Shown here piece by piece: positions 7,981 through 19,512 of a DNA stretch of 64,000 nt. Position numbers and translations under genes: made by a program. Every line of letters starts with the position of its first letter. The first letter of the stretch is position 1. The stretch is taken from the NCBI RefSeq assembly GCF_004912275.1, contig NZ_STGY01000001.1:1-64000 (forward strand), written 5' to 3'. The notes under the pieces were generated by a model that worked only from the letters and a program-made list of their open reading frames with translations, made no database searches and was not told where the DNA came from. The stretch comes from Glycomyces buryatensis. GTDB taxonomy: Bacteria > Actinomycetota > Actinomycetes > Mycobacteriales > Micromonosporaceae.

Positions 7981-9193
7981 CCTTGCCCTCGCCCCGGTAC
8001 GTCGGCGCCTCGTCGATGATCTCACCGCGCGAGACCAGGTGGATCTCGTTCACCCGCTCCGCCAGCTCCCCGGCCTTGGCGTGCCGCATCCACACCCGTG
8101 AACCGATGACCAGACCGTCGGCGGCCTTGCCGCGCAACGGGGTCTGCACCTCCCCGGCGCCCTCAGTCCCGGCGAACGACATTCCACTGGGGAACGTCGG
8201 CTTGGGCAGCCGGTCCTTGCCCGGCACCCCCGAGGCGATCCAGCCGCCGCCGAGCGCGGTGACCATGCCCCGCCGCGGCCGCCGCACCACCGGCAGCGCG
8301 AAGAACGCGGCCGGGAGCGGGCGGATCGACCGGTAGCCGTCGAACAGCGCCGGCGAGTACAGGCCCGACCCGGCGGCGACCTCCGTGACCGACGGGTCCC
8401 CCGCCGTCCACCCGATCGAACCGGTCCCGCCGCCGTTGACGAACTCCAGATCGGCCACGCCCTGCACCGCCGCGACGGCGTCCGCGCGGCGCTCGGCCAG
8501 CTCGGACTTGGAGATCCGCTGCATGAGCCGCACCAGCGGATACTGCAGGGCCGCAGCGCTGAAGGCGTCCTGCACGCCCGCGATCTGGCCCTCGTAGCCC
8601 ATGATCCCGACCAGGTTCACGCCCTGGCGCTTCTCGATCTCGTGCGCCATCGCGAGCGCCTGCTCGGCCGAGTGGACCGGCGAGCGGTGGGCGCCGATGT
8701 GGACGCGGCCGCCGAACAACTCCAGCGACATGTCCAGCTCCAGGCACAGCCGCAGCGGACGCGACGGATTCGGTTCCACATTGCGGCGCAGGAAGTCCAG
8801 GTGCTCGACGGAGTCGACCATGAGCGTGATGCGCCGCGCGGCCTCGTCGTCGCCCGCCAAGCGGCGCAACGCCTCCACGTCGGCCGTCGGATATCCGACC
8901 ACGATGTCGTCGAACTCCTCCGCGAGCCACAGCGCCTCGGGGAGCGTGAAACCGAGAATGCCGCGGAACCCGGGCTGGGCCAGCGCCCTGCGCATGAGCG
9001 TGCGGCACCGCAATGACTTGCTGGCCAAACGGATCGGTTTCCCGATCGCGCCGCGCCGCAGAATGGCGGCGTTGGTGTCGAAGGCACCGAGGTCGACCAC
9101 GGCGAAGGGCGGCTGCACCCCGGCGGTCGCGCGGCCCAATTCGGCGAACAGGTTCTCGGCGGGGCCGTGGCCCAAGTTGGTCCGGGTTACCAT
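7970..9193 (-). CDS. PLP-dependent amino acid deaminase/aldolase (alanine racemase fold)
   Basis: This 407-residue protein has the alanine-racemase N-terminal barrel. PFAVVDLGAFDTNAAILRRGAIGKPIRLASKSLRCR carries the PLP-lysine in the ASKS strand. GFTLPEALWLAEEF, the VDSVEHLDFL strand and an ELDMS strand follow in order. The C-terminal part has the D-serine dehydratase-like pattern. The family includes D-threonine aldolases and D-serine deaminases; the exact substrate is unknown. ATG 9193 has AGGGAAG upstream. It is divergent from the sugar-lactone oxidase gene at 9269 with 75 nt between starts, a pairing I recall from other actinomycetes, which suggests a shared promoter region. Confidence 0.82.
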   Translation of the reverse strand: MVTRTNLGHGPAENLFAELGRATAGVQPPFAVVDLGAFDTNAAILRRGAIGKPIRLASKSLRCRTLMRRALAQPGFRGILGFTLPEALWLAEEFDDIVVGYPTADVEALRRLAGDDEAARRITLMVDSVEHLDFLRRNVEPNPSRPLRLCLELDMSLELFGGRVHIGAHRSPVHSAEQALAMAHEIEKRQGVNLVGIMGYEGQIAGVQDAFSAAALQYPLVRLMQRISKSELAERRADAVAAVQGVADLEFVNGGGTGSIGWTAGDPSVTEVAAGSGLYSPALFDGYRSIRPLPAAFFALPVVRRPRRGMVTALGGGWIASGVPGKDRLPKPTFPSGMSFAGTEGAGEVQTPLRGKAADGLVIGSRVWMRHAKAGELAERVNEIHLVSRGEIIDEAPTYRGEGKAFV

Positions 9194-9268
9194 GTCGCTT
9201 CCCTTCCCTGGTCAGATGCGGTTAGATGAAAGCTACCGTCACGTAGAACGATCACTACCGGAGGCCCC

Positions 9269-10576
9269 GTGACAACCTCTCTGTGGCAGAACTGGTCGGG
9301 TACCGAAACGGCCGAACCCTCGCGGGTCGCCAGACCCGCCGAAGTGGACGATCTGGCGGCCCTGGTGCGCGCCGCCGCCGACGACGACCTGCGCGTCAAG
9401 GCCGTCGGCGCCGGCCACTCGTTCAGCGGCATCGCCGTGCCCGAGGACATTATGGTCGACCTCGGCGACCTGGACCAGGTGATCGAGATAGACGCCGCCT
9501 CCCATCTGGCCACCGTCGAGGCGGGCATGCCGCTGTGGCGCCTCAACCAGGTGCTGGACGCGCACGCGCTGGCGTTGGAGAACATGGGCGATATCGACCG
9601 GCAGACCATCGCGGGGGCGATCTCGACGGGCACGCACGGCACCGGCGACCGGTACCGCGGCTTCTCGTGGCAGGTCGCGGGCCTGAAGCTGGTCCTGGCC
9701 GACGGCACCGTGGCGCGGTGCTCGGAGAACGAGCGCCCGGAGCTGTTCGCGGCGGCCCGACTCGGTTTGGGGGCGTTGGGGATCATCGCCGAGGTGACGA
9801 TGCGCTGCGTCCCGGCCTTCCAGCTGCGGGCGGTCGAGAAGCCCATGCGGCTGGAGGTGGTGCTCGACAGGCTGGACGAGCTCGTGGCCGAGAACGACCA
9901 CTTCGAGTTCTACTGGTTCCCGCACACCGACCGGACCCTGACGAAGCGGAACAACCGCTACTCGATGGACGAGCGCGGCCGGGCCCCGAGCCGGCTCTCG
10001 TACTGGTGGAACGAGGCCTTCACCGAGAACACGCTGTTCGAGGCGGCCAACCGGGTGGGGACGCGGTTCCCGGGGTGGGTGCCGGGGATCAACCGGCTGG
10101 CCGGGCGGGTGTGGAGCGCCCGCGAGTACACCGACGTCTCGCACCGGGTCTTCACCTCGCCGCGGCGGGTGGTGTTCCGCGAGATGGAGTACGCGGTGCC
10201 GCACGAGAGCCTGCCGCAGGTCTTGAGGGACTTGCGGGACATGGTGGAACGCGAGGGCCACCACGTCTCCTTCCCGGTGGAGGTGCGCTTCGCGGCCGCC
10301 GACGACGTGTGGCTCTCGACCGCGCAGGGCCGGCGCACCGCGTATGTGGCCGTGCACCAGTACCACCGGCACGAGTACGAGGCCTACTTCCGCGACTGCG
10401 CGGCGATCTTCGACGCGGCCGAGGGTCGGCCGCACTGGGGCAAGATGCACTGGCTGGACGACAAGAAGCTGGACGAGCGCTACGAGCGCTTCGCGGATTT
10501 CGTGGCGGTGCGGGACGAGGTGGACCCCGACCGGCGATTCGGCAACGCCTATCTGGAACGCGTGCTCGGCGCTTGA
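9269..10576 (+). CDS. FAD-linked D-arabinono-1,4-lactone oxidase family protein
   Basis: This 435-residue oxidoreductase has an N-terminal FAD-binding PCMH domain. It begins with EVDDLAALVRAAADDDLRVKAVGAGHSFSG, then GDIDRQTIAGAISTGTHGTG, the pyrophosphate-binding region. The C-terminal ALO domain ends in the family signature PHWGKMHWL, then DPDRRFGNAYLERVLG. Relatives oxidise sugar-1,4-lactones such as L-gulono- or D-arabinonolactone with O2 or another acceptor. The actual substrate here is not known. GTG 9269 has GGAG 5 nt upstream. The divergent neighbour is the PLP aldolase. Confidence 0.9.
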   Translation: MTTSLWQNWSGTETAEPSRVARPAEVDDLAALVRAAADDDLRVKAVGAGHSFSGIAVPEDIMVDLGDLDQVIEIDAASHLATVEAGMPLWRLNQVLDAHALALENMGDIDRQTIAGAISTGTHGTGDRYRGFSWQVAGLKLVLADGTVARCSENERPELFAAARLGLGALGIIAEVTMRCVPAFQLRAVEKPMRLEVVLDRLDELVAENDHFEFYWFPHTDRTLTKRNNRYSMDERGRAPSRLSYWWNEAFTENTLFEAANRVGTRFPGWVPGINRLAGRVWSAREYTDVSHRVFTSPRRVVFREMEYAVPHESLPQVLRDLRDMVEREGHHVSFPVEVRFAAADDVWLSTAQGRRTAYVAVHQYHRHEYEAYFRDCAAIFDAAEGRPHWGKMHWLDDKKLDERYERFADFVAVRDEVDPDRRFGNAYLERVLGA

Positions 10577-10692
10577 CCTCCTTCCCGCCCTGAGGAACGG
10601 AGCATCCTCGTGGCGCCGGGCGATCGGCGACCGGCTGGCTGGAAGGCGCTAGCCTGGGGGTGCCCCGCAGCTCCCATAGAAAGTGCCCCATA

Positions 10693-11442
10693 GTGACTGA
10701 CCAGCAGCCCTACGGCCCCCAGTACTCCCAGCCTGGGCATCCGATGCACCCGCCGACTCCGCTCGGGAAGAACCCCGAGCGCTCCTTCGAGGACAAGATC
10801 AAGCTCGGCCGCGATGTCACCGTGGGGGTGGTGCTGGTGCTCGCCGGCAGCGCGTTCACCGCCGCTTCCGCCTGGTACTCGATGTTCGTGGCCGACGCGT
10901 TCTGGACGCCGGTTCCGGTCTCGCTGCTGGCGGTCGCCTTCGTGCTGTTCCTCGCCCAGGTCTGGTATTTCGTGCTCCGGGAGGGCCTGACGCCGATGAT
11001 CGCGGCGGCGATCGGCGTCCACCTGGTGCTGTTCGCCATGCCGATCCTGATCTTCATCGGCGTCAATGAGCAGGTCCTCACCGAGCGCGGTGTCACCGAG
11101 TCCTGCACGGTCACCTCGCAGGAGAAGACGTACGTCCGCAGCGACGGGGAACGGAAGCCCAAGTACGACCACACCATGGAATGCCCGGAGGGCGGCGAGT
11201 TCGATCTGCGGACGTCGCCGAGGCAGCGCCACGACGTCGGCGAGTCGGTCGTGCTCACGTACGACCCGGAGGGCCGCGCCGGTCACCGCACCGGTGAGCC
11301 GAGCGGGTCCCCGCTCGCGCTGTTCGGCGGGATCGCGGCGGCGGTCTTCGTCGTCGGCACGGTGGTGCGGGTGATCTACCTGCGGTTCAGGTTCCGCCGC
11401 GGCGCCAAGCGGCGGGCCGCGTTCGGGGCACCGGGCCTTTAG
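10693..11442 (+). CDS. Membrane protein with DUF3592-like extracytoplasmic domain
   Basis: This protein has 249 residues. A Gln/Pro-rich cytoplasmic start is followed by three predicted membrane helices (about 40-60, 70-95 and 100-125). Then comes a soluble domain (ESCTVTSQEKTYVRSDGERKPKYDHTMECPEGGEFDLRTS, with a possible Cys pair, ending in VVLTYDPEGRAG). A fourth helix and a basic tail complete it. The soluble domain resembles DUF3592, of unknown function. The start is uncertain. GTG 10693 has a weak site; GTG 10660 is also in frame and lies just after a TAGCCT box at 10650. The stop is followed closely by a CTAG-type terminator shared with the convergent toxin gene. Confidence 0.65.
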   Translation: MTDQQPYGPQYSQPGHPMHPPTPLGKNPERSFEDKIKLGRDVTVGVVLVLAGSAFTAASAWYSMFVADAFWTPVPVSLLAVAFVLFLAQVWYFVLREGLTPMIAAAIGVHLVLFAMPILIFIGVNEQVLTERGVTESCTVTSQEKTYVRSDGERKPKYDHTMECPEGGEFDLRTSPRQRHDVGESVVLTYDPEGRAGHRTGEPSGSPLALFGGIAAAVFVVGTVVRVIYLRFRFRRGAKRRAAFGAPGL

Positions 11443-11464: not shown

Positions 11465-11490
11465 CCTAGGGGTGTTTCGGAACCCCTAGG
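11465..11490. terminator. CTAG-family stem-loop, copy 2
   Basis: CCTAGGGGT (11465-11473) pairs perfectly with ACCCCTAGG (11482-11490) around the loop GTTTCGGA. It lies between convergent genes and contains the TAG stop of the reverse-strand PIN toxin gene (11486-11488). Confidence 0.8.
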
Positions 11491-11935
11491 CGCCCTGGCC
11501 GTCCCAATCGAATGGCAGAATCTCGAACGCGTCGAACCCGGCCGTGAGCGGCCTGATCGCGCGAAAATCCCGCTGGTCCAGCGTGAAGATTCGGTTGGTG
11601 TCGTACCGATCCGCCAGCGCCACACCGACCGTGTCGGCGAGATCGAGTTTCAGACCGCGGTAATCAAGCCTGAGCTGGTTCGCGGTTGCGAAGTCCTCAT
11701 AGCGAATCGACGCCAGCTGGTATCGACCGCGTTCGAATCGGACCAACAGCGCCGCAGCGACCTCGACCGCGAAGTCGAACCCGCCTTCACGGCGCGCCAG
11801 ATGGTCGAGCTCCGTCATGACCAGTGGGGAGACGAGCAGCGACTCGGTCTCCATGATCTGTTCGGCCGCTTCATGATGCGGCTGGCCTTCATCGAAGGCG
11901 GCGAGGACTGCCGAGGTGTCTGCGACGATGATCAT
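11486..11935 (-). CDS. PIN-domain toxin (VapC-type)
   Basis: This is a 149-residue PIN nuclease. The expected acidic residues are visible: Asp in MIIVADTSAV (about 6), Glu in MTELDHL (about 42), and Asp in KLDLADTVGVALA plus TLDQRDFR near the C-terminus. VapC-type toxins cleave RNA, often tRNA or rRNA, when freed from their antitoxin. Its ATG overlaps the antitoxin stop (ATGA), so the two are translationally coupled. The second PIN toxin in the window (39575-39994) is visibly homologous, sharing ADTSA, ELDxL and the RPLT..F end. The TAG stop lies inside a terminator hairpin. Confidence 0.88.
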   Translation of the reverse strand: MIIVADTSAVLAAFDEGQPHHEAAEQIMETESLLVSPLVMTELDHLARREGGFDFAVEVAAALLVRFERGRYQLASIRYEDFATANQLRLDYRGLKLDLADTVGVALADRYDTNRIFTLDQRDFRAIRPLTAGFDAFEILPFDWDGQGA

Positions 11936-12180
11936 CGCTTCTGCGCGCGCCGCTTCATGCTCTGGTAGATCGCCTCGTCCATCTCATCGACGGTGAGCGG
12001 CTGCTCGCTGCGGTACTTCGGCAGAGGCGGCAGCGGGTCGGATTCCCCGGTTCGGATAAGCCCTTCATCGATGAATCGGCGCATGAGCTCAGCTTTCGAG
12101 GCACCCAACTTCCGGGCTACTGCCTCCAGCCGCATGTCTGCGGCCTCATCAAGGTAGATAGTGCTCTTCTTGCGACTCAT
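11932..12180 (-). CDS. RHH/CopG-like antitoxin of the PIN toxin
   Basis: This 82-residue protein has an N-terminal ribbon-helix-helix pattern (RKKSTIYLDEAADMRLEAVARKLGASKAELMRRFIDEGL), which would bind the operator as a dimer. The C-terminal tail (YRSEQPLTVDEMDEAIYQSMKRRA) would wrap the toxin. ATG 12180 is chosen because it gives the compact RHH start and because a TACCAT -10 box (reverse strand, 12188-12193) ends 7 nt before it, suggesting a leaderless mRNA. An in-frame start at 12249 adds 23 unlikely residues. The stop overlaps the toxin start by 4 nt. Confidence 0.83.
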   Translation of the reverse strand: MSRKKSTIYLDEAADMRLEAVARKLGASKAELMRRFIDEGLIRTGESDPLPPLPKYRSEQPLTVDEMDEAIYQSMKRRAQKR

Positions 12181-12296
12181 GCCATCGATGGTACCACCCG
12201 TTGATATTGCCAGCGATGAACTGCGGCGGAACCGTTTCACCGAACTCACGCACCGCTGTCGGCCGGGTTGTCAGTCCCGTGGGCTAGGTTGTGGCC

Positions 12297-13040
12297 GTGG
12301 CAGATGTGCTGTACCGAACGCTCGACGATCTCTCCGATTCCGAGATCTACCAGGCCTATGAGCCGCCCGAAGCCGATTGGCTCCGCGTCAACTTCGTCTC
12401 CAGCGCCGACGGCGCCGCGACCCTGAGCGGCCTGTCCGGGCCACTTTCGGGTGAAGCCGACAAGCGGGTCTTCAAGGTCCTGCGCGCCAGGTGCGACGTG
12501 CTGGTGGCCGGGTCCGGGACGGTCCTGGCCGAGGGGTACGGGCCGCTGGTCCTCAGCGCCGACCGCATGGCCTGGCGCCGGGACCAGGGACTGCCGGAGG
12601 TCCCGATCATGGCGATCGTCTCGCGCTCGGCCCGGCTCGACCCGTCTGCGGCGATCTTCACCGAGGCGCCGCGGCGGCCGATCGTGATCTGCGCGGCCGA
12701 CGCCGCCGTCGACCAGATGGCCGAGATGCGGGAGGTCGCCGACGTCATCGCGATCGGCACCGGCTCGGTCGACTTCCCGGCCGCCATCAGGGCCCTGCGC
12801 GAGCGGGGCCTGCGCCAGATCCTGTGCGAGGGCGGGCCGACCGTATTCGGCGAACTCATCGCGGCCGACGCGGTGGACGAACTGTGCCTGACGGTCTCGC
12901 CGCTCCTGGTCGGGGCCGGGGCACCGCGCATCGCCGAGGGCCACGCGGCCGAATCGGCCCGGGCACTGCGGCTGCGACACGTCATCGAAGCCGGGGGCAA
13001 TCTGATCGTGCGCTATCTGCGAGGATCGACCGATGAGTGA
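12297..13040 (+). CDS. Pyrimidine reductase family protein (RibD C-terminal domain)
   Basis: This is a 247-residue dihydrofolate-reductase-fold protein of the RibD C-terminal family. It has LRVNFVSSADGAATLSGLSGPLSGEADKRVFKVLRARCDVLVAGSGTV, the NADPH-binding region PIMAIVSR, and ILCEGGPTVFGELIAADAVDELCLTVSPLL, the family's C-terminal signature. RibD-C enzymes reduce the ribosylamino-pyrimidine of riboflavin synthesis. Without the deaminase domain this paralogue may act elsewhere. GTG 12297 is preferred because a TAGGTT -10 box ends 6 nt before it (leaderless); GTG 12291 is the alternative. The stop overlaps the start of the HerA-like gene by 8 nt, so it is in one operon with the DNA-end-processing genes. 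Confidence 0.85.
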   Translation: MADVLYRTLDDLSDSEIYQAYEPPEADWLRVNFVSSADGAATLSGLSGPLSGEADKRVFKVLRARCDVLVAGSGTVLAEGYGPLVLSADRMAWRRDQGLPEVPIMAIVSRSARLDPSAAIFTEAPRRPIVICAADAAVDQMAEMREVADVIAIGTGSVDFPAAIRALRERGLRQILCEGGPTVFGELIAADAVDELCLTVSPLLVGAGAPRIAEGHAAESARALRLRHVIEAGGNLIVRYLRGSTDE

Positions 13041-14745
13041 TTCTGTGGGCCGCGTCCTCGGCACCGAGGACGCCACGCCGCTGTCGTTCTGGGTCGGCGT
13101 CGGACCCGACGCCTATGCGCAGCTCGACGACGTGCTCACCACCGAACGCCAGGTCCCGGGCGTCGGCACGGTCACCGTCTCCGGCGTCGTCACCGCGGTG
13201 CGCAGCCGCCACGAGGGCGCCCAGTTCGACTCCGACGTGTTCGACATCGCCGGGGGCCTGCTCCCCGCGCAGGTCCAGGAGGCCGCCGAGGTCACCGTGA
13301 CCCGCGTCGAGCCGGAGGTGTTCGTGCCGCCGACGCCGGGCGCCGAGGTGCACCGCGCCACCGGCGACGAACGCGACCGCGCCCTGTACTTCGACGGCAT
13401 GACCCGCCAGATCCCCCTCGGGTTCTCGCGCGACGGCCAGCCGGTGTTCCTCAACGCCGACTTCCTCGACGGTTCGCGCGGCGCCCACGTGTCGATCTCC
13501 GGCATCTCGGGCGTCGCCACCAAGACCTCCTTCGCGACCTGGCTGCTCTACTCGCTGCTGCACTCCGGCGCGATGGGCGCCGAGGCGGCCAACACCAAGG
13601 CGCTCATCTTCAATGTCAAGGGCGAGGACCTGCTGCTCCTCGACCACGACAACACCCGCATCGACGACACCATCCGCGAGCAGTACCGTCGGCTCGGCAT
13701 GGCGCCCGGCGCGTTCAAGTCCGTCGAGGTCCTGGCCCCGCCCCGCGAAGGCGACCGCAATGGCGTCCCCGACGTGGCCTGCCGCTCCACCGGCGTCGAG
13801 GCCTTCTACTGGACGCTCGGCGAGTTCTGCGCCGACGGCATGCTGCCCTTCGTGTTCGCCGACGCCGACGACGACCGCCAGCAGTACACGATGGTCGTCC
13901 ACCAGGTCGCCGCCCGGCTCCGCAAGGAGGCCCGCCCGAAGGACAACGGCGCCGTCGCCATCGACGGCCAGCTCCTCACCAGCTACCGGGACCTGGTCGA
14001 CCTCATCTGCGAACGGCTCTCCGACGACGACACCCGCACCGAATGGGCGGGGTCCGCGATCGGCCTGGGCACCGTCAACGCCTTCATCCGCCGCCTCATC
14101 GCCTCCGGCCGCGACGTCGGCCGCCTCATCCGCGGCGACCTCCCCTCCCGGGGCAAGGCCGTCTCCTCGGACGCGCAGGTGACCGTCGTCGACCTGCACA
14201 ACCTGCCCGACCGGGCGCAGCGCTTCGTCGTCGGCGTGGTGCTGCGGACCGAATTCGAGCGCAAGGAGAAGGCCGGCACGGCCAGGCCGCTGCAGTTCGT
14301 CGTCCTCGACGAGCTCAACAAGTACGCGCCGCGCGAGGGCACCAGCCCCATCAAGGACATCCTGCTCGACATCGCCGAGCGCGGCCGCTCCCTCGGCGTC
14401 ATCCTCATCGGCGCGCAGCAGACCGCCTCCGAAGTGGAGCGCCGCATCGCGTCGAACTCCGCGATCCGCGTCGTCGGACGCCTCGACGCCGCCGAGGCCA
14501 CCCGACCCGAGTACGGATTCCTGACACAGGCCCAGCGCATGCGGGTCCTCATGGCCAAGCCCGGCACCATGTTCGTCGGCCAGCCCGAACTGCCGGTGCC
14601 GCTGGTCGTGAACTTCCCGTTCCCGGCGTGGGCGACCCGCCCCGCCGAGGCCGGCCACGCCCCGACCGCCACCGCCCGCTCGGTGACGGCCAAAGTGGAC
14701 CCGTTCGACCTGGCCGGCGACGACGAAGACGACATTCCGTTCTAG
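13033..14745 (+). CDS. HerA-like hexameric ATPase (DUF87/FtsK-HerA superfamily)
   Basis: This 570-residue protein has an N-terminal beta-rich region of the HAS-barrel kind (VPGVGTVTVSGVVTAV...). The ATPase core follows: a Walker A equivalent at SISGISGVATKTSFATWLL, a strong Walker B FVVLDELNKY, ILIGAQQTASEV (sensor strand) and a RVVGRLDAAEA segment as in HerA proteins. HerA forms a hexameric DNA translocase that works with the nuclease NurA and with Mre11-Rad50 in end resection, as known from archaea. The P-loop is unusual, lacking the Gly before Lys (ATKT instead of GxGKT). It starts inside the preceding gene and precedes sbcD by 19 nt, so one transcript is likely. Confidence 0.82.
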   Translation: MSDSVGRVLGTEDATPLSFWVGVGPDAYAQLDDVLTTERQVPGVGTVTVSGVVTAVRSRHEGAQFDSDVFDIAGGLLPAQVQEAAEVTVTRVEPEVFVPPTPGAEVHRATGDERDRALYFDGMTRQIPLGFSRDGQPVFLNADFLDGSRGAHVSISGISGVATKTSFATWLLYSLLHSGAMGAEAANTKALIFNVKGEDLLLLDHDNTRIDDTIREQYRRLGMAPGAFKSVEVLAPPREGDRNGVPDVACRSTGVEAFYWTLGEFCADGMLPFVFADADDDRQQYTMVVHQVAARLRKEARPKDNGAVAIDGQLLTSYRDLVDLICERLSDDDTRTEWAGSAIGLGTVNAFIRRLIASGRDVGRLIRGDLPSRGKAVSSDAQVTVVDLHNLPDRAQRFVVGVVLRTEFERKEKAGTARPLQFVVLDELNKYAPREGTSPIKDILLDIAERGRSLGVILIGAQQTASEVERRIASNSAIRVVGRLDAAEATRPEYGFLTQAQRMRVLMAKPGTMFVGQPELPVPLVVNFPFPAWATRPAEAGHAPTATARSVTAKVDPFDLAGDDEDDIPF

Positions 14746-14764
14746 GCCTTTCTAGGAGTGAGCC

Positions 14765-15928
14765 TTGCGCATCCTGCACACCTCCGACTGGCACGTCGGC
14801 GTCACCTTGAAAGGCCGGCCGCGCCTCGACGAGCAGCGCGCCGTCTTCGCCCAGCTCGCCGACATCGTCCGTGAAGAGCGGCCCGACCTGGTCATCGTCG
14901 CCGGGGACCTCTACGACACCGCCGCGCCCTCGAGCGCGGCCCAGAAGGTCCTGTACTCGACGCTCTCCGCGCTGCGCCAGACCGGCGCCGAGGTCGTCGC
15001 CATCGCCGGGAACCACGACAACGGGCCCGGCCTGGAGGCCCTGCGCGAATGGGCGCACGCCGCCGGAATCCACCTGCGGGGCCGCATCGGCAAGGCCTCA
15101 GACCACATCGTCACCGGCACCACCGAATCGGGCGAGCGCTGGCGGCTCGCGGCCCTGCCGTTCGTCTCGCAGCGCTACGCCGTGCGCGCCGCCGAGCTGT
15201 TCGAACTGAGCGTGGCCGACGCCGAGTCCGCCTACGCCGACCACCTGCGCCGCATGGTCTCCGCGCTCACCCAGGGCTTCGGCGCCGACGAGGTCAACCT
15301 GATCTGCGGCCACCTCACCGTCGTCGGCGGCAAGGTCGGCGGCGGCGAGCGGGAGGTGCACACCGTGGCCGACTACGCCGTGCCCGCCGCGATCTTCCCC
15401 GCCTCCACCGGCTATGTCGCGCTGGGGCACCTGCACAAGGCCCAGAAGATCGAAGGTCCGTGCCCGATCCGGTACTCCGGCGGGCCCCTCGCGGTCGACT
15501 TCGGCGAGGAGGACCACCAGCCGAGCGTGACCATCGTGGACGTCACCAACGACACCCCGGCGCGCATCCGCGAGGTGCCGCTGACGGCGGCCGTGCCGCT
15601 CCAGACGGTGCGGGGCAACCTGGGGCAGCTCGCCGAGGCCGCGGAGTCCGGAATCGACGAACGGGCGTGGCTGCGGGTGTTCGTGACCGAACCCGCCCGC
15701 GCCGGACTGCGCAGCGAGGTCGCCGACCTGTTCCCGCGCGCCGTCCAGATCCACATCGACCCGGTCCTGCGCGCCGATGCGACGAAACCGAAGGAGCGAC
15801 GCTCGGGCCGCAGCCCCGGCGAGCTGTTCGGCGAATACCTGACCGAGAACGGCCACGACGACCCCGCCGTCGCCGCGCTCTTCGGCGAACTCTACGAAGC
15901 GACCCAGACCGTCGCGGCGGAGGATTAA
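14765..15928 (+). CDS. sbcD: Exonuclease SbcCD subunit D (Mre11 homologue)
   Basis: This 387-residue metallophosphoesterase is the nuclease half of SbcCD, acting on double-strand ends and hairpins. All phosphoesterase motifs are present: HTSDWHVG at the start, VIVAGDLYD, AIAGNHDN, and ICGHLTVVGG with GYVALGHLHK for the final metal-binding histidines. The C-terminal part (LRVFVTEPARAGLRSEVADLFPRAVQIHIDP) matches the SbcD capping domain. The TTG start at 14765 has TAGGAG 6 nt upstream. The stop TAA is immediately followed by the sbcC ATG, implying coupled synthesis in fixed ratio. Confidence 0.95.
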   Translation: MRILHTSDWHVGVTLKGRPRLDEQRAVFAQLADIVREERPDLVIVAGDLYDTAAPSSAAQKVLYSTLSALRQTGAEVVAIAGNHDNGPGLEALREWAHAAGIHLRGRIGKASDHIVTGTTESGERWRLAALPFVSQRYAVRAAELFELSVADAESAYADHLRRMVSALTQGFGADEVNLICGHLTVVGGKVGGGEREVHTVADYAVPAAIFPASTGYVALGHLHKAQKIEGPCPIRYSGGPLAVDFGEEDHQPSVTIVDVTNDTPARIREVPLTAAVPLQTVRGNLGQLAEAAESGIDERAWLRVFVTEPARAGLRSEVADLFPRAVQIHIDPVLRADATKPKERRSGRSPGELFGEYLTENGHDDPAVAALFGELYEATQTVAAED

Positions 15929-18358
15929 ATGAGGCCGATTCGCCTGGACCTGCACGGCTTCGGTTCCTACACCGAGGCCTCCACCTTCGACTTCACCGAC
16001 GTCGACTTCTTCGCCCTCACCGGCCCCACCGGGGCCGGCAAGTCCACCGTGCTCGACGCGATGTGCTTCGCGCTCTACGGCAAGACGCCGCGCTGGACGA
16101 ACTCGACCCAGCACTTCATCGCGCCCTCCGCCGTCGAGGGCCGGGTCCGGCTGGTGTTCGCCGCCGGCGGGAGCCACTACGTGGCAACGAGGGTGCTGCG
16201 TCGCGGGGGCAGCGGCAATGTCACCACCGCCCAGGCGGCGCTGGAGCGGCTGCCCGAGGGCGTCAACCCCGCCGACGACGACGAACTCCTCGAAGGGCTC
16301 GGCACCGCGCTGGCCTCGGGCGCCTCGGTGGTCGGCAAGGCCGTCGAGGGCATCATCGGGCTGCCGTTCGACCAATTCACCAAGTGCGTGCTGCTGCCCC
16401 AGGGCGAGTTCGCCGAGTTCCTGCACGCCTCGGCGGCCGATCGACGCAAGATCCTGGAGAACCTGCTGGGTCACAGCGTGTACCGCGGGATCCAGCAGCA
16501 GGCCCGGGCCCGGTACTCGGCCGCGTCGACCGCGCAGCAGACGCTCGAGGCGCAGCTGGCGCACGTCGCGCCGGTCTCCGACGAGGAGCTGGCGGCCACC
16601 GCCGAGCGGGTCGAGCGGCTGGAAAAGCTCACGGAGCCGGTGCGGGACAAGGCGAACGCGCTGGACGGGATGAGCGCGGCGATCGAGGCCGCGCGGACGC
16701 GGCTGGCCCTGGCCGAAAAGCACCTGACGTCGCTCACGTACATCAAGCGGCCCTCAGGGGTCGACGACATCGCCTCGCAGGTGGCCGACGCGGCCGCCAA
16801 GACCGTGGAGAAGGCGGCCGAGGTCGAGGCGACCGAGGCCGAGGACGAGCGGCTGCGCGCCGAGCTCGACGGGCTCGACCTGGGCCTGATCGAGCGGCAG
16901 CTCAAGGCCTGGGCGGACCTGTCGGAGACCGACGTGAACCTCAGGACCGGCACCGAGCTCACCGAGGAGTTGAAGCTCCAGCACGAGGAGGCGAAGGAGC
17001 TGGAGGGCGCGGCGGCCGAGGAGGTCGAGATCCAGCACGCGGCCCTGCACAAGATCCGCATGGCGGAACTGGCCGGGACGCTGCGCGCCGAGCTGGTCGC
17101 CGGGGAGGACTGCCCGGTGTGCGACCGGGCCGTCGAGACCGTTCCCGAACGCGACGTCTCCGAGGAGCTGAAGGAGGCGCAGGCCGCGGCCAACAATGCG
17201 CAGATCGAGCACAAGGACGCGCAGCAGGCGGTGGTGAGCCTCCGGGCGAGGCTGGACTCCTATGAGGAGCGGCTGACCGAGCTGCGGCTGACGCAGCGGC
17301 GGCTGAGCAAGAAGCTCGAAGACGTCCCCGACGCGGAGGCGTTGCGCGCCAAGCGGTCGGCGGCCGAGGTGGGCAAGCAGCAGCTGTCCGGGATCGCCAA
17401 TGAACTGCGGGCCGCGCGCCGGGCGCTGCGGGAGGCGCAGAAGCGCAAGACCACCGCGGAGGAGAAGCGGCAGCGGGCCTGGACCGAGTTCAACCACGCG
17501 CGGGACCAGGTCGGCGGGCTGACGCCGCCGCCGGTGGGGACGGAGCTGTCGGCGAGCTGGCAGTCCCTGGTGGAATGGGCCGCCACGGCGCTGGAGCGGA
17601 CGACGGCCGACCGCGAGGCGGCCCGGTCCGAGTCGGAGAGCCTGGACGGACGCGCCAAGACGCTGCGGGCAGAACTCCTGGCGGCGATGGCCGAGTTCGG
17701 GGTCAAGGTGCCGCTGACGGGAACGGGCGGCGACTACGTTGCGGCGCATGCCAGGTCGGTGGAATCGGCCCGGGCGGAAGCGGCACGGCTGTCCGAGCAG
17801 CGAAAGCGGCGCGTGGAGCTGGAGTCGGAGACGCGGCGGTTCGCGCGGGACGCCGAGGTGGCGAAGGAGCTCGCGGCGCATCTGAAGGCGGACCGGTTCA
17901 TGGAGTGGCTGCTGAGCGAGGCCCTGGACGAGCTGGTGGCGGGCGCGACGGTGATGCTCAACCGGATCACGGGCGGGCAGTACGACCTGATCTACCGGGA
18001 TCAGGATTTCTGGGTGGTGGACCACCACGACGCGGACATGGCGCGGCCGGCGCGGAGCCTGTCGGGCGGGGAGACGTTCGCGGCATCGCTGTCGCTGGCC
18101 TTGGCGCTGAGTGATCAGCTGGCGAGCCTGGCGCGGCACGGGGCGTGTCTGGAATCGATCATCCTGGACGAGGGCTTCGGGACGCTGGACCCCGAGACGC
18201 TGGACGCGGTGGCGACGACGCTGGAGGCGCTGACGATCTCGGCGGGGCGGACGGTCGGGCTGGTGACCCACGTACCGGAACTCGCCGAGCGGGTCCCGGT
18301 GCGATTCCGGATCACCAAGGACGCGAAGGGATCACACGTGGAGAAGACCTTCGCCTGA
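15929..18358 (+). CDS. sbcC: SbcC/Rad50-like SMC-family ATPase
   Basis: This 809-residue partner of SbcD bridges DNA ends and drives the nuclease by ATP hydrolysis. Walker A ALTGPTGAGKSTVLDAM is near residue 30 and the Q-loop region LLPQGEFAEFLHA is near 150. Long coiled coils flank the zinc hook C395-PVC398. The ABC signature SLSGGETFAASLSLALALSD is near 710 and Walker B IILDEGFGTLD near 745. It is shorter than E. coli SbcC (about 1,050 residues), with short coiled-coil arms, as in other actinobacteria. ATG 15929 has GGAGG upstream and adjoins the sbcD stop. Confidence 0.95.
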   Translation: MRPIRLDLHGFGSYTEASTFDFTDVDFFALTGPTGAGKSTVLDAMCFALYGKTPRWTNSTQHFIAPSAVEGRVRLVFAAGGSHYVATRVLRRGGSGNVTTAQAALERLPEGVNPADDDELLEGLGTALASGASVVGKAVEGIIGLPFDQFTKCVLLPQGEFAEFLHASAADRRKILENLLGHSVYRGIQQQARARYSAASTAQQTLEAQLAHVAPVSDEELAATAERVERLEKLTEPVRDKANALDGMSAAIEAARTRLALAEKHLTSLTYIKRPSGVDDIASQVADAAAKTVEKAAEVEATEAEDERLRAELDGLDLGLIERQLKAWADLSETDVNLRTGTELTEELKLQHEEAKELEGAAAEEVEIQHAALHKIRMAELAGTLRAELVAGEDCPVCDRAVETVPERDVSEELKEAQAAANNAQIEHKDAQQAVVSLRARLDSYEERLTELRLTQRRLSKKLEDVPDAEALRAKRSAAEVGKQQLSGIANELRAARRALREAQKRKTTAEEKRQRAWTEFNHARDQVGGLTPPPVGTELSASWQSLVEWAATALERTTADREAARSESESLDGRAKTLRAELLAAMAEFGVKVPLTGTGGDYVAAHARSVESARAEAARLSEQRKRRVELESETRRFARDAEVAKELAAHLKADRFMEWLLSEALDELVAGATVMLNRITGGQYDLIYRDQDFWVVDHHDADMARPARSLSGGETFAASLSLALALSDQLASLARHGACLESIILDEGFGTLDPETLDAVATTLEALTISAGRTVGLVTHVPELAERVPVRFRITKDAKGSHVEKTFA

Positions 18359-18600
18359 GACCGAGGCCGACGCGCGACCCGGGCCGGCAGCGCATGGTCG
18401 GGCTCGAAGAGCGCCATGCCGTCCGCGAGGACGACCGCAATGCCCGAGGTTCCCCCGCCTGCTCGACCTGGTGCGGGAGTGGGAACCGGAGGAGGGCTAG
18501 GAGGGTTCGCGAACACCCCCTAGGCTGGGGTCGACCGTCGAGCAGGGGTGCTCACAACCGCCTCTGAGCCGAGGTCGACCTCCAAGAAAGCGGGTGCGCC
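18359..18600. other. Intergenic, no confident gene
   Basis: This 242-nt stretch lies between sbcC and the NurA-like gene. A short frame ends at TAG 18498-18500 with a sensible-looking C-terminus (LLDLVREWEPEEG) but has no credible start and may be a gene remnant. A CTAG-family stem-loop follows at 18497-18524. Confidence 0.35.
18497..18524. terminator. CTAG-family stem-loop, copy 3
   Basis: CTAGGAGGG (18497-18505) pairs with the CCCCCTAG arm ending at 18524, with one G-T-type wobble on the reverse strand. The core GTTCGCGAAC is itself a perfect palindrome. It may attenuate or end the sbcC transcript before the NurA-like gene. Confidence 0.6.
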
Positions 18601-19512
18601 TTGCAGATCACCGTCGACGCCTGGGATCCGTCCTTCGCCGACAATTCCGAATCGCCGCGGAAGGCCGACTCGGCCGAGGTCAATGCCGAGGTGGAGGTGC
18701 CCGCGAAGGACTGGGCCCCGCTCGACGCCCCCGGCACCGGCCCCACTCGGATCCTCGTGGTCGACGGCGTGCGCCGCCTCGACGCGCGCATCGAGCTCAC
18801 CGACGAGACCGGCCGCTGGCCGGGGCTGTGCGTCTCGTGGGCTGCCGGCGCGGTCGCCTGCGACCTCGAAGGCGGCGCCTCCGCTGTCACCGAGACGGCC
18901 GTCGAACGCGGCCTCTTCTCCCCTATCGACCCCGGCACCGACTTCGGCCAGTACCCGTACCGCAAGTCCGACGCCGCGGAAGCCGCCGAACTCATCGCCG
19001 CCGCCCAGACCGCCATGGCCTCCCTGGAGGCGAAGGTCGCAGCCGCGGTGGCGACCCACGCGGAACTCTCGGTCCTGGACGGGACCCTGCGGGGCCGCAC
19101 CAGGCTGCCGAACGCGGTGGGCTACATCAAGAGCCACCACCGGTCCTACCTGCGCGGAGCCATGAACGGCGTGGTCGAGCAGCTGCGTCCCGGCCAGCGC
19201 ACGCCCGTCTTCCACCTCATGACGACCTGGCCGCGGTACTCCTGGTACCTGCGCCTGCCGGGAATGAGCTCCAAGGGCTGGGCGGGCATCGCGCGGATCG
19301 AGGCGGCGGACGCCCTGAGCGAAGAGGCGGCGATCGCGCTGGCCGACGCGACGGCGGCGGCCCTGCCCCCGTTGGGTTCGGCCGCGCACAAGGACCCGCG
19401 GGCCCCGCAGAACCTGACCCCGATCGCGGGGCTCGAACGTCGCCTGAAGCGGAAACTCGGAGACCCGCGACTGCTGTTGAAAGCAGTGCGGGCCTCCGCG
19501 TCCGAGTTCTGA
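18601..19512 (+). CDS. Putative NurA-type nuclease
   Basis: This 303-residue protein shows the motif order of NurA nucleases. A first acidic motif is VVDGVRRLDARIEL (D55, with E65 following). A second is SVLDGTLRGRT (D160). Then comes AVGYIKSHHRSYL (K177, H179/H180), and RYSWYLRLPG in the C-terminal half. NurA degrades 5' strands together with the HerA translocase in end resection. Context supports this strongly, since a HerA-like ATPase and Mre11-Rad50 homologues lie just upstream on the same strand. The TTG start at 18601 is the first in-frame start giving QITVDAWDPS; the ribosome-binding site is weak. The family call is by motif reading, and a remote-homology search would be needed to settle it. 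Confidence 0.68.
   Translation: MQITVDAWDPSFADNSESPRKADSAEVNAEVEVPAKDWAPLDAPGTGPTRILVVDGVRRLDARIELTDETGRWPGLCVSWAAGAVACDLEGGASAVTETAVERGLFSPIDPGTDFGQYPYRKSDAAEAAELIAAAQTAMASLEAKVAAAVATHAELSVLDGTLRGRTRLPNAVGYIKSHHRSYLRGAMNGVVEQLRPGQRTPVFHLMTTWPRYSWYLRLPGMSSKGWAGIARIEAADALSEEAAIALADATAAALPPLGSAAHKDPRAPQNLTPIAGLERRLKRKLGDPRLLLKAVRASASEF

Follow-up and report, generated by a model that had tools for sequence, protein, structure and literature searches.

Five open reading frames (ORFs) lie in a row on the plus strand of the DNA analysed here, positions 1-64,000 of contig NZ_STGY01000001.1 of Glycomyces buryatensis (GCF_004912275.1); this whole 64,000-nt stretch is referred to as the window. They encode a RibD-type reductase, HerA, SbcD, SbcC and NurA (Table 1). 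The initial annotation of this DNA had listed same-strand genes for a reductase, HerA, SbcD, SbcC and a NurA candidate, and all five ORFs were recovered with these identities. Its frame for the reductase was right, but the start given there, 12297, falls two codons inside the gene. The distances between successive genes were -8, +19, 0 and +242 nt: the last 8 nt of the reductase gene overlap the start of herA, and SbcC begins directly after the SbcD stop.

Table 1. Genes and spacer of the cluster in the window.
Feature	Position	Strand	Basis
RibD_C-type pyrimidine reductase family protein, probable passenger	12291..13040	+	RibD_C, NF010663
HerA ATPase, putative DNA translocase, 570 aa	13033..14745	+	phmmer to 7f6d_B
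SbcD (Mre11-type nuclease), 387 aa, TTG start	14765..15928	+	TIGR00619 above cut-off
SbcC (Rad50-type ATPase), 809 aa	15929..18358	+	AAA_23, SbcC_Walker_B
Spacer SbcC-NurA, 242 nt	18359..18600	+	between ORFs
NurA nuclease, 303 aa, TTG start	18601..19512	+	phmmer, profile, predicted structure

Judged by sequence, profile and predicted structure, the product of the last gene is a genuine NurA. In phmmer searches against solved structures it matched Deinococcus radiodurans NurA (7f6d_H, E = 2.1e-18), to which residues 48-298 can be aligned, and 1zup (E = 0.017). A profile of 38 homologues retrieved D. radiodurans NurA (E = 4.8e-44) and Thermotoga TM1739 (E = 8.5e-16). The AlphaFold model had a mean pLDDT of 90.8, and its leading Foldseek matches were 7f6d_G (E = 5.0e-17), 1zup (E = 6.3e-13) and Sulfolobus NurA 2ygk (E = 6.0e-7), with moderate TM-scores by query length of 0.68 for 7f6d, 0.69 for 1zup and 0.40 for 2ygk; weaker matches were to TdpAB (E = 1.8e-4) and endonuclease V. 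The earlier assignment of this protein to NurA, made from motif order, therefore holds, since a confident model retrieves NurA structures first. Among the motifs, the aspartates of VVDG and VLDG (D55, D160) and the lysine of GYIK (K177) were invariant in the 38 aligned homologues, but the histidine that follows was variable. An HKDPRAPQN block lies close to the C end. Mn-dependent nuclease activity and a toroidal dimer are predicted by analogy. The Pfam model NurA (PF09376) scored 16.8 bits, under a cut-off of 21 that is a model threshold and not a biological feature. A NurA family search of the genome itself returned no match, the same search being positive in 7 of 14 control genomes, and a search with the NurA sequence found a single one.

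The second gene encodes, by its sequence, a bacterial HerA of the Deinococcus type. It matched D. radiodurans HerA (7f6d_B) with E = 2.4e-138 and was alignable over nearly the full length. Residues K164/T165 and D426/E427 were invariant in 32 aligned sequences and correspond, counted along the alignment, to K175/T176 (Walker A) and D487/E488 (Walker B) of D. radiodurans HerA (PMC9960219). By analogy with that protein, HerA would be a hexameric DNA translocase bound to NurA. The next HerA-like entries in the PDB were far weaker (E = 0.0017 and worse); some of them are presumably defence HerAs. The genome holds a single HerA match, and Pfam gave no HerA-type match for the window protein. With HerA unnamed by Pfam and NurA under its cut-off, annotation may miss the module, so genomes probably carry both proteins unnamed.

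SbcD scored 174.5 bits with TIGR00619, above the cut-off of 77.65, and its phosphoesterase residues (D8, H10, D48, N83, H84, D85, H183, H222 and H224) were invariant in 32 aligned sequences. SbcC matched TIGR00618 with E = 6.3e-79 and 266.1 bits, yet below the cut-off of 478.5; Pfam recognised AAA_23 and SbcC_Walker_B, and a zinc-hook-like CPVC motif was present. The sequences thus carry the features of SbcCD/Mre11-Rad50: the phosphodiesterase motifs of SbcD, the ATPase ends of SbcC and a CxxC hook.

Conservation of the linkage was examined in 80 related loci, the best 80 of 100 from a scan of genome contigs ranked by likeness to the window NurA. Two gene orders were distinguished, HerA-SbcD-SbcC-NurA as in the window (HDCN) and NurA-HerA-SbcD-SbcC (NHDC); the share of HDCN among these loci is biased because they were picked by likeness to the window NurA. 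Gene content was HerA-SbcD-SbcC-NurA in 65 loci, SbcD-SbcC-NurA in seven, SbcC-NurA in five and NurA alone in three. Eleven of the 15 incomplete loci reach a contig end and four (L028, L039, L048 and L051) do not; HerA is present in the genomes of L048 and L051. Two loci (L076, L078) were scored as HDCN because of a short HerA tail where the contig begins, two (L056, L061) have a partial HerA, and several non-actinobacterial loci are contigs of metagenome-assembled genomes (MAGs), possibly misbinned. Every locus titled Glycomyces (20/20) carries the cluster, and a 4-nt SbcC/NurA overlap is possible from a NurA start codon in 38 of the 80. The place of NurA beside sbcCD, on which the earlier proposal had been made to depend, is thus conserved in relatives. 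The four genes are linked on one strand and kept so; the observed cluster is confirmed as real, and a chance neighbourhood is excluded because the linkage is conserved.

A less biased test used an even draw of 198 Actinomycetota genomes with matches taken at E 1e-6. NurA was found in 49 genomes, HerA in 64 and an SbcD-like protein in 139, and all 49 NurA-bearing genomes also had HerA. At 43 of 50 NurA places, HerA and SbcD lay on the same strand within 25 kb, and all compared genes at the NurA places were on one strand. The order was NurA-HerA-SbcD at 30 places, HerA-SbcD-NurA (the window order) at 13 and NurA-HerA at five; at two places NurA stood alone on its contig. This count took in all 50 NurA places, 64 HerA rows (the best per genome, and the second for genome G146) and 55 SbcD rows; the weak HerA of G069 and the weaker SbcD rows were left out, so that four places of family f16 were counted as NurA-HerA only. 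The set was absent from 5/5 drawn genomes of the same order (family f2) and from 7/7 of family f4. In the phylum of genome G202, whose locus L058 is titled Dehalococcoidia, HerA was found in 10 of 121 genomes. At nine HerA loci of this phylum, NurA adjoined HerA in every case and SbcD and/or SbcC came next in six; of the other three, L160 is located at the end of a contig, and just NurA-HerA is present in L166 and L167.

HDCN formed one clade with support 100 in a tree built from 51 chosen SbcD rows, which left out the f16 group, L108 and L105. Support was 99 in an 88-row SbcD tree, with the unlinked SbcD of L105 inside the clade. The HerA and NurA trees also grouped by gene order, with exceptions: HDCN changed 4 times in the HerA tree and 5 times in the NurA tree, against shuffled means of 18.3 and 19.9. 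For the 88-row SbcD tree and the HerA and NurA trees, the majority of the Glycomyces loci, 12 loci that were duplicates or short, and short sequences were set aside. That the two orders were assembled independently was not supported, as a single origin of all linked SbcD was not rejected (approximately unbiased test, p-AU = 0.478); NHDC as one clade was not rejected either (p-AU = 0.433; 51-row SbcD tree). Gammaproteobacterial MAG loci grouped with the Cyclobacteriaceae MAG locus L068 (support 98 for SbcD, 71 for HerA and 91 for NurA), and L063, from an Acidobacteria MAG, grouped with L071/L073 (99, 98 and 99, respectively). These groupings fit movement of the block as a unit, and also MAG misbinning.

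Four proteins of established identity, with conserved catalytic residues, are therefore encoded together on the same strand in two gene orders. The genome also encodes two neighbouring UvrD/AddA-like helicases that have PDDEXK matches; no named model scored above its cut-off, and by sequence the pair looks like AdnAB. We consider herA-sbcD-sbcC-nurA to be, with a probability of about 0.6, a bacterial DNA-end-processing set for the ends of double-strand breaks, working beside the AdnAB-like enzyme, with the reductase most likely a passenger. Reading the cluster as a linked HerA-Mre11-Rad50-NurA type set, as the initial annotation did, is supported, as HerA and NurA match the solved Deinococcus complex and the linkage is conserved; that it acts as an end-resection machine is what we infer. 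SbcC-SbcD (Rad50-Mre11) would bind ends that are blocked or broken and open them by its ATP-gated nuclease. HerA, as a hexameric ring, would next drive duplex DNA into the NurA dimer, which would degrade mainly the 5' strand and leave a 3' tail for RecA. Since the genome encodes an AdnAB-like pair, the set would provide a further route, perhaps one for ends inaccessible to AdnAB. Complex formation, polarity and a repair role are suggested by analogy with Deinococcus and archaea. Co-transcription and cooperation in 5' resection are predicted, the former from gene spacing.

Several observations weigh against this interpretation. Apart from D. radiodurans NurA and TM1739, the profile of 38 NurA homologues matched nothing at E values up to 10, and hence no archaeal NurA. 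No HerA was found in genomes G198 (L028) and G199 (L039) despite the presence of nurA, and HerA and SbcD were 1.5-14 kb apart in 10 of the 43 linked places. Fifteen of the 64 HerA genomes had no NurA match: 13 belong to family f16, in which NurA may have diverged too far to be matched, and the others are G070, with HerA and a partial SbcD match, and G069, where HerA is weak. AdnB-like proteins were found in 31/49 NurA genomes versus 28/149 others (Fisher's test, p = 1.5e-8, relatedness ignored) and RecB-like proteins in 6/49 versus 24/149, with neither in 13/49 NurA genomes; the thresholds (at least 200 bits for AdnB-like and at least 350 bits for RecB-like) were chosen after viewing the lists, and fragmented genes fall below them. 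The set is therefore not a plain substitute for AdnAB, and its replacing AdnAB or RecBCD was rejected as unsupported. Within the cluster and close to it, neither an SOS-like nor a PafBC-like consensus motif was found, and their counts over the window were at chance. The literature searched yielded no biochemistry from any actinobacterium. Deletion of nurA-herA is reported to raise the UV and mitomycin resistance of D. radiodurans (PMC9960219), and a 2026 study of the Thermococcus complex argues that this complex possibly carries out no end resection (PMC12977600).

Antiviral complexes are known in which HerA is joined with Sir2 and with DUF4297 nucleases, and an antiviral role for HerA-NurA is suggested in the Thermococcus study (PMC12977600). 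The cluster could accordingly be a counter-invader nuclease in which HerA-NurA translocates linear DNA of foreign origin and degrades both of its strands while SbcCD opens the ends and repair is secondary, although we regard this as unlikely. PADLOC models did hit the window HerA (mad8, E = 5.7e-11; best HerA model, E = 1.4e-6), the TdpAB match of the NurA model points the same way, and a toxin-antitoxin-like pair lies directly upstream of the cluster. However, the window HerA is far nearer to its D. radiodurans counterpart than to the next HerA-like PDB entries, the cluster is present in all Glycomyces-titled loci, and HerA and NurA each have one match in the genome. The pair upstream is the sole hint of conflict among ten flanking ORFs, three of which have no family, and SbcCD is a general repair enzyme.

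HerA-NurA could also act as a brake, or as a switch, for the principal resection by AdnAB and RecJ, competing for ends or partners, with the SbcCD linkage reflecting control. In D. radiodurans, NurA is described as blocking the stimulation of RecJ by HerA, and its loss as raising mitomycin resistance (PMC4663267, PMC9960219); the enrichment of AdnB-like proteins in NurA genomes would agree with this. The conserved nuclease residues of NurA argue instead for catalysis, and the HerA-binding domain of RecJ is described as particular to Deinococcus-Thermus RecJ (PMC4663267). We regard the brake as a shade less probable than the counter-invader role. The single HDCN clade of the SbcD tree, the unrejected single origin of all linked SbcD and the wide HerA-SbcD gaps at some places would all suit an incidental linkage, inherited within one clade by HerA-NurA and SbcCD that have no joint function. 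This is very improbable: the same set is maintained in two gene orders, with its genes on one strand wherever places were compared, the NurA-HerA-first order recurs in the phylum of G202, and archaea keep the set as one operon (PMC4351679).

The end-processing set has known counterparts. The HerA-NurA complex of D. radiodurans has been solved (PDB 7f6d, PMC9960219); its HerA is shared over nearly the full length and its NurA over residues 48-298, with common Walker positions. The D. radiodurans genes are, according to a review (PMC8708640), not clustered with mre11/rad50 homologues, whereas herA and nurA of the window flank sbcD-sbcC. The Sulfolobus operon is listed as herA, mre11, rad50, nurA (PMC4351679; the system is also treated in PMC2288612) and, as in the window, holds the four functions in one block. 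Differences from the archaeal set were also seen: SbcD scored 201.6 bits with sbcd_Bac and 47.4 with Mre11_Sulfo, both below the cut-offs, SbcCD being nearer to bacterial models, and archaeal NurA (2ygk) was reached from the window NurA by fold only and not by profile. Judging by locus numbers, the gene order of S. solfataricus is that of the window. In Oceanithermus profundus, nurA-hepA followed by sbcD and sbcC are reported as linked (PMC5448004). This bacterium thus links the same four genes, in an order that, as described, is that of the NHDC group; in the window, which comes from a different phylum, nurA stands last, after sbcC.

NurA/HerA homologues are mentioned for Actinobacteria in the review (PMC8708640); among the papers listed in the literature search, none reported the linkage in Actinomycetota, and an earlier mention is possible. 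The bacterial counterpart of the archaeal set proposed in the initial annotation is real but not new as such, given the Deinococcus complex (PMC9960219) and the Oceanithermus linkage (PMC5448004). Bacterial HerA-NurA and the four-gene linkage are already known; here the linkage is widespread, and the order in the window matches the archaeal one. The module was found in about a quarter of the drawn Actinomycetota genomes and in at least one more phylum, in two orders and often with an AdnAB-like enzyme in the same genome. Tentatively, and with doubt prevailing, the set might be a second general bacterial machine for the initiation of recombination, an SbcCD-HerA-NurA module constructed like that of archaea, with SbcCD nearer to the bacterial type. 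If so, the archaeal-like order would reflect either a very old operon in which SbcCD was replaced or a result that selection for joint assembly has produced repeatedly.

The in-cell role of HerA-NurA is disputed: the pair is reported as essential in Sulfolobus islandicus (PMC4351679), deletable with raised resistance in Deinococcus, and doubted as a resection system in Thermococcus. Its distribution indicates that the proteins also occur beyond the heat-loving and the radiation-resistant bacteria. A partnership known chiefly from archaea of hot habitats appears to be a widespread though little-studied repair module of bacteria. Because Glycomyces, with named cultured species, carries the complete set, SbcCD and HerA-NurA could be removed there singly or together, beside AdnAB.

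The reductase matched RibD_C (E = 2.5e-34) and the NCBIfam model NF010663, 'pyrimidine reductase family' (190.9 bits, above the cut-off of 184). This family (NCBIfam PRK14059 models) is without evidence of a DNA-repair role. The gene was linked in 23 of the 80 loci, 20 titled Glycomyces, two Stackebrandtia and one MAG (L018) that groups with those; in some of the remaining 57, only a short sequence precedes HerA. The 8-nt overlap with herA recurred in 15 of the 23, and in two the genes were 1.4 kb apart. Given linkage in these lineages only, the reductase, whose coupling to the front of the set the initial annotation had left unexplained, does not belong to the set: a functional fifth member is unlikely, and the gene is probably a passenger.

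Ten ORFs flanking the cluster were compared with protein families. At 11486-12249 on the minus strand, just upstream of the reductase, a PIN-domain and a ribbon-helix-helix protein form a VapBC-like toxin-antitoxin pair. Other upstream neighbours are a lactone oxidase and a protein with an alanine racemase-type domain; downstream lie a transglycosylase-like protein (weak), a glutamyl/glutaminyl-tRNA synthetase-type gene and an FAA hydrolase. Besides the pair, five of the ten belong to metabolic, cell-wall or tRNA-synthetase families and three have no family.

Some related loci depart from the usual arrangement. L028 (Mumia, G198; 8727-10930) holds NurA and the C-terminal half of SbcC, lacks SbcD, belongs to a genome without a HerA match and looks like a decaying cluster; L039 (G199) has SbcD-SbcC-NurA. 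Genome G146 carries, beside its ordinary set, a second and very divergent NurA-HerA-SbcD-SbcC set (L108, contig 15, 2301-9308). In the f16 loci L098, L099, L124 and L125, a distant NurA-HerA pair on very long branches has weak SbcD-like matches nearby and is possibly a separate type; in L125 a weak NurA adjoins HerA. On one MAG contig (L104, 8377-12279; L022, 2558-6487) the HerA match is split over several short frames, either because of misassembly or because the gene is broken; here HerA and SbcD are separated by an Ig-like/cadherin-like gene.

ORFs of 25 inserts (HerA-SbcD, SbcD-SbcC and SbcC-NurA) were clustered, and ten were run against Pfam. A recurrent fifth gene was rejected, as the ORFs formed only small groups, the largest spanning five loci, all Glycomyces. 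The ten encode carbonic anhydrase, MFS transporter, cell-wall binding, AlkZ-like glycosylase, peptidase/hydrolase, flavin oxidoreductase, Ig-like and kumamolisin-activation domains, with two lacking a family; the tested inserts have no common function. Between SbcC and NurA, L009 (9155-9931) has a gene with a carbonic anhydrase domain, and similar ORFs occur in L008, L012, L014 and L019, five Glycomyces loci in all. In L037 (3937-5106), HerA and SbcD are separated by a gene for an AlkZ-like DNA glycosylase, which adds a further repair function to the block.

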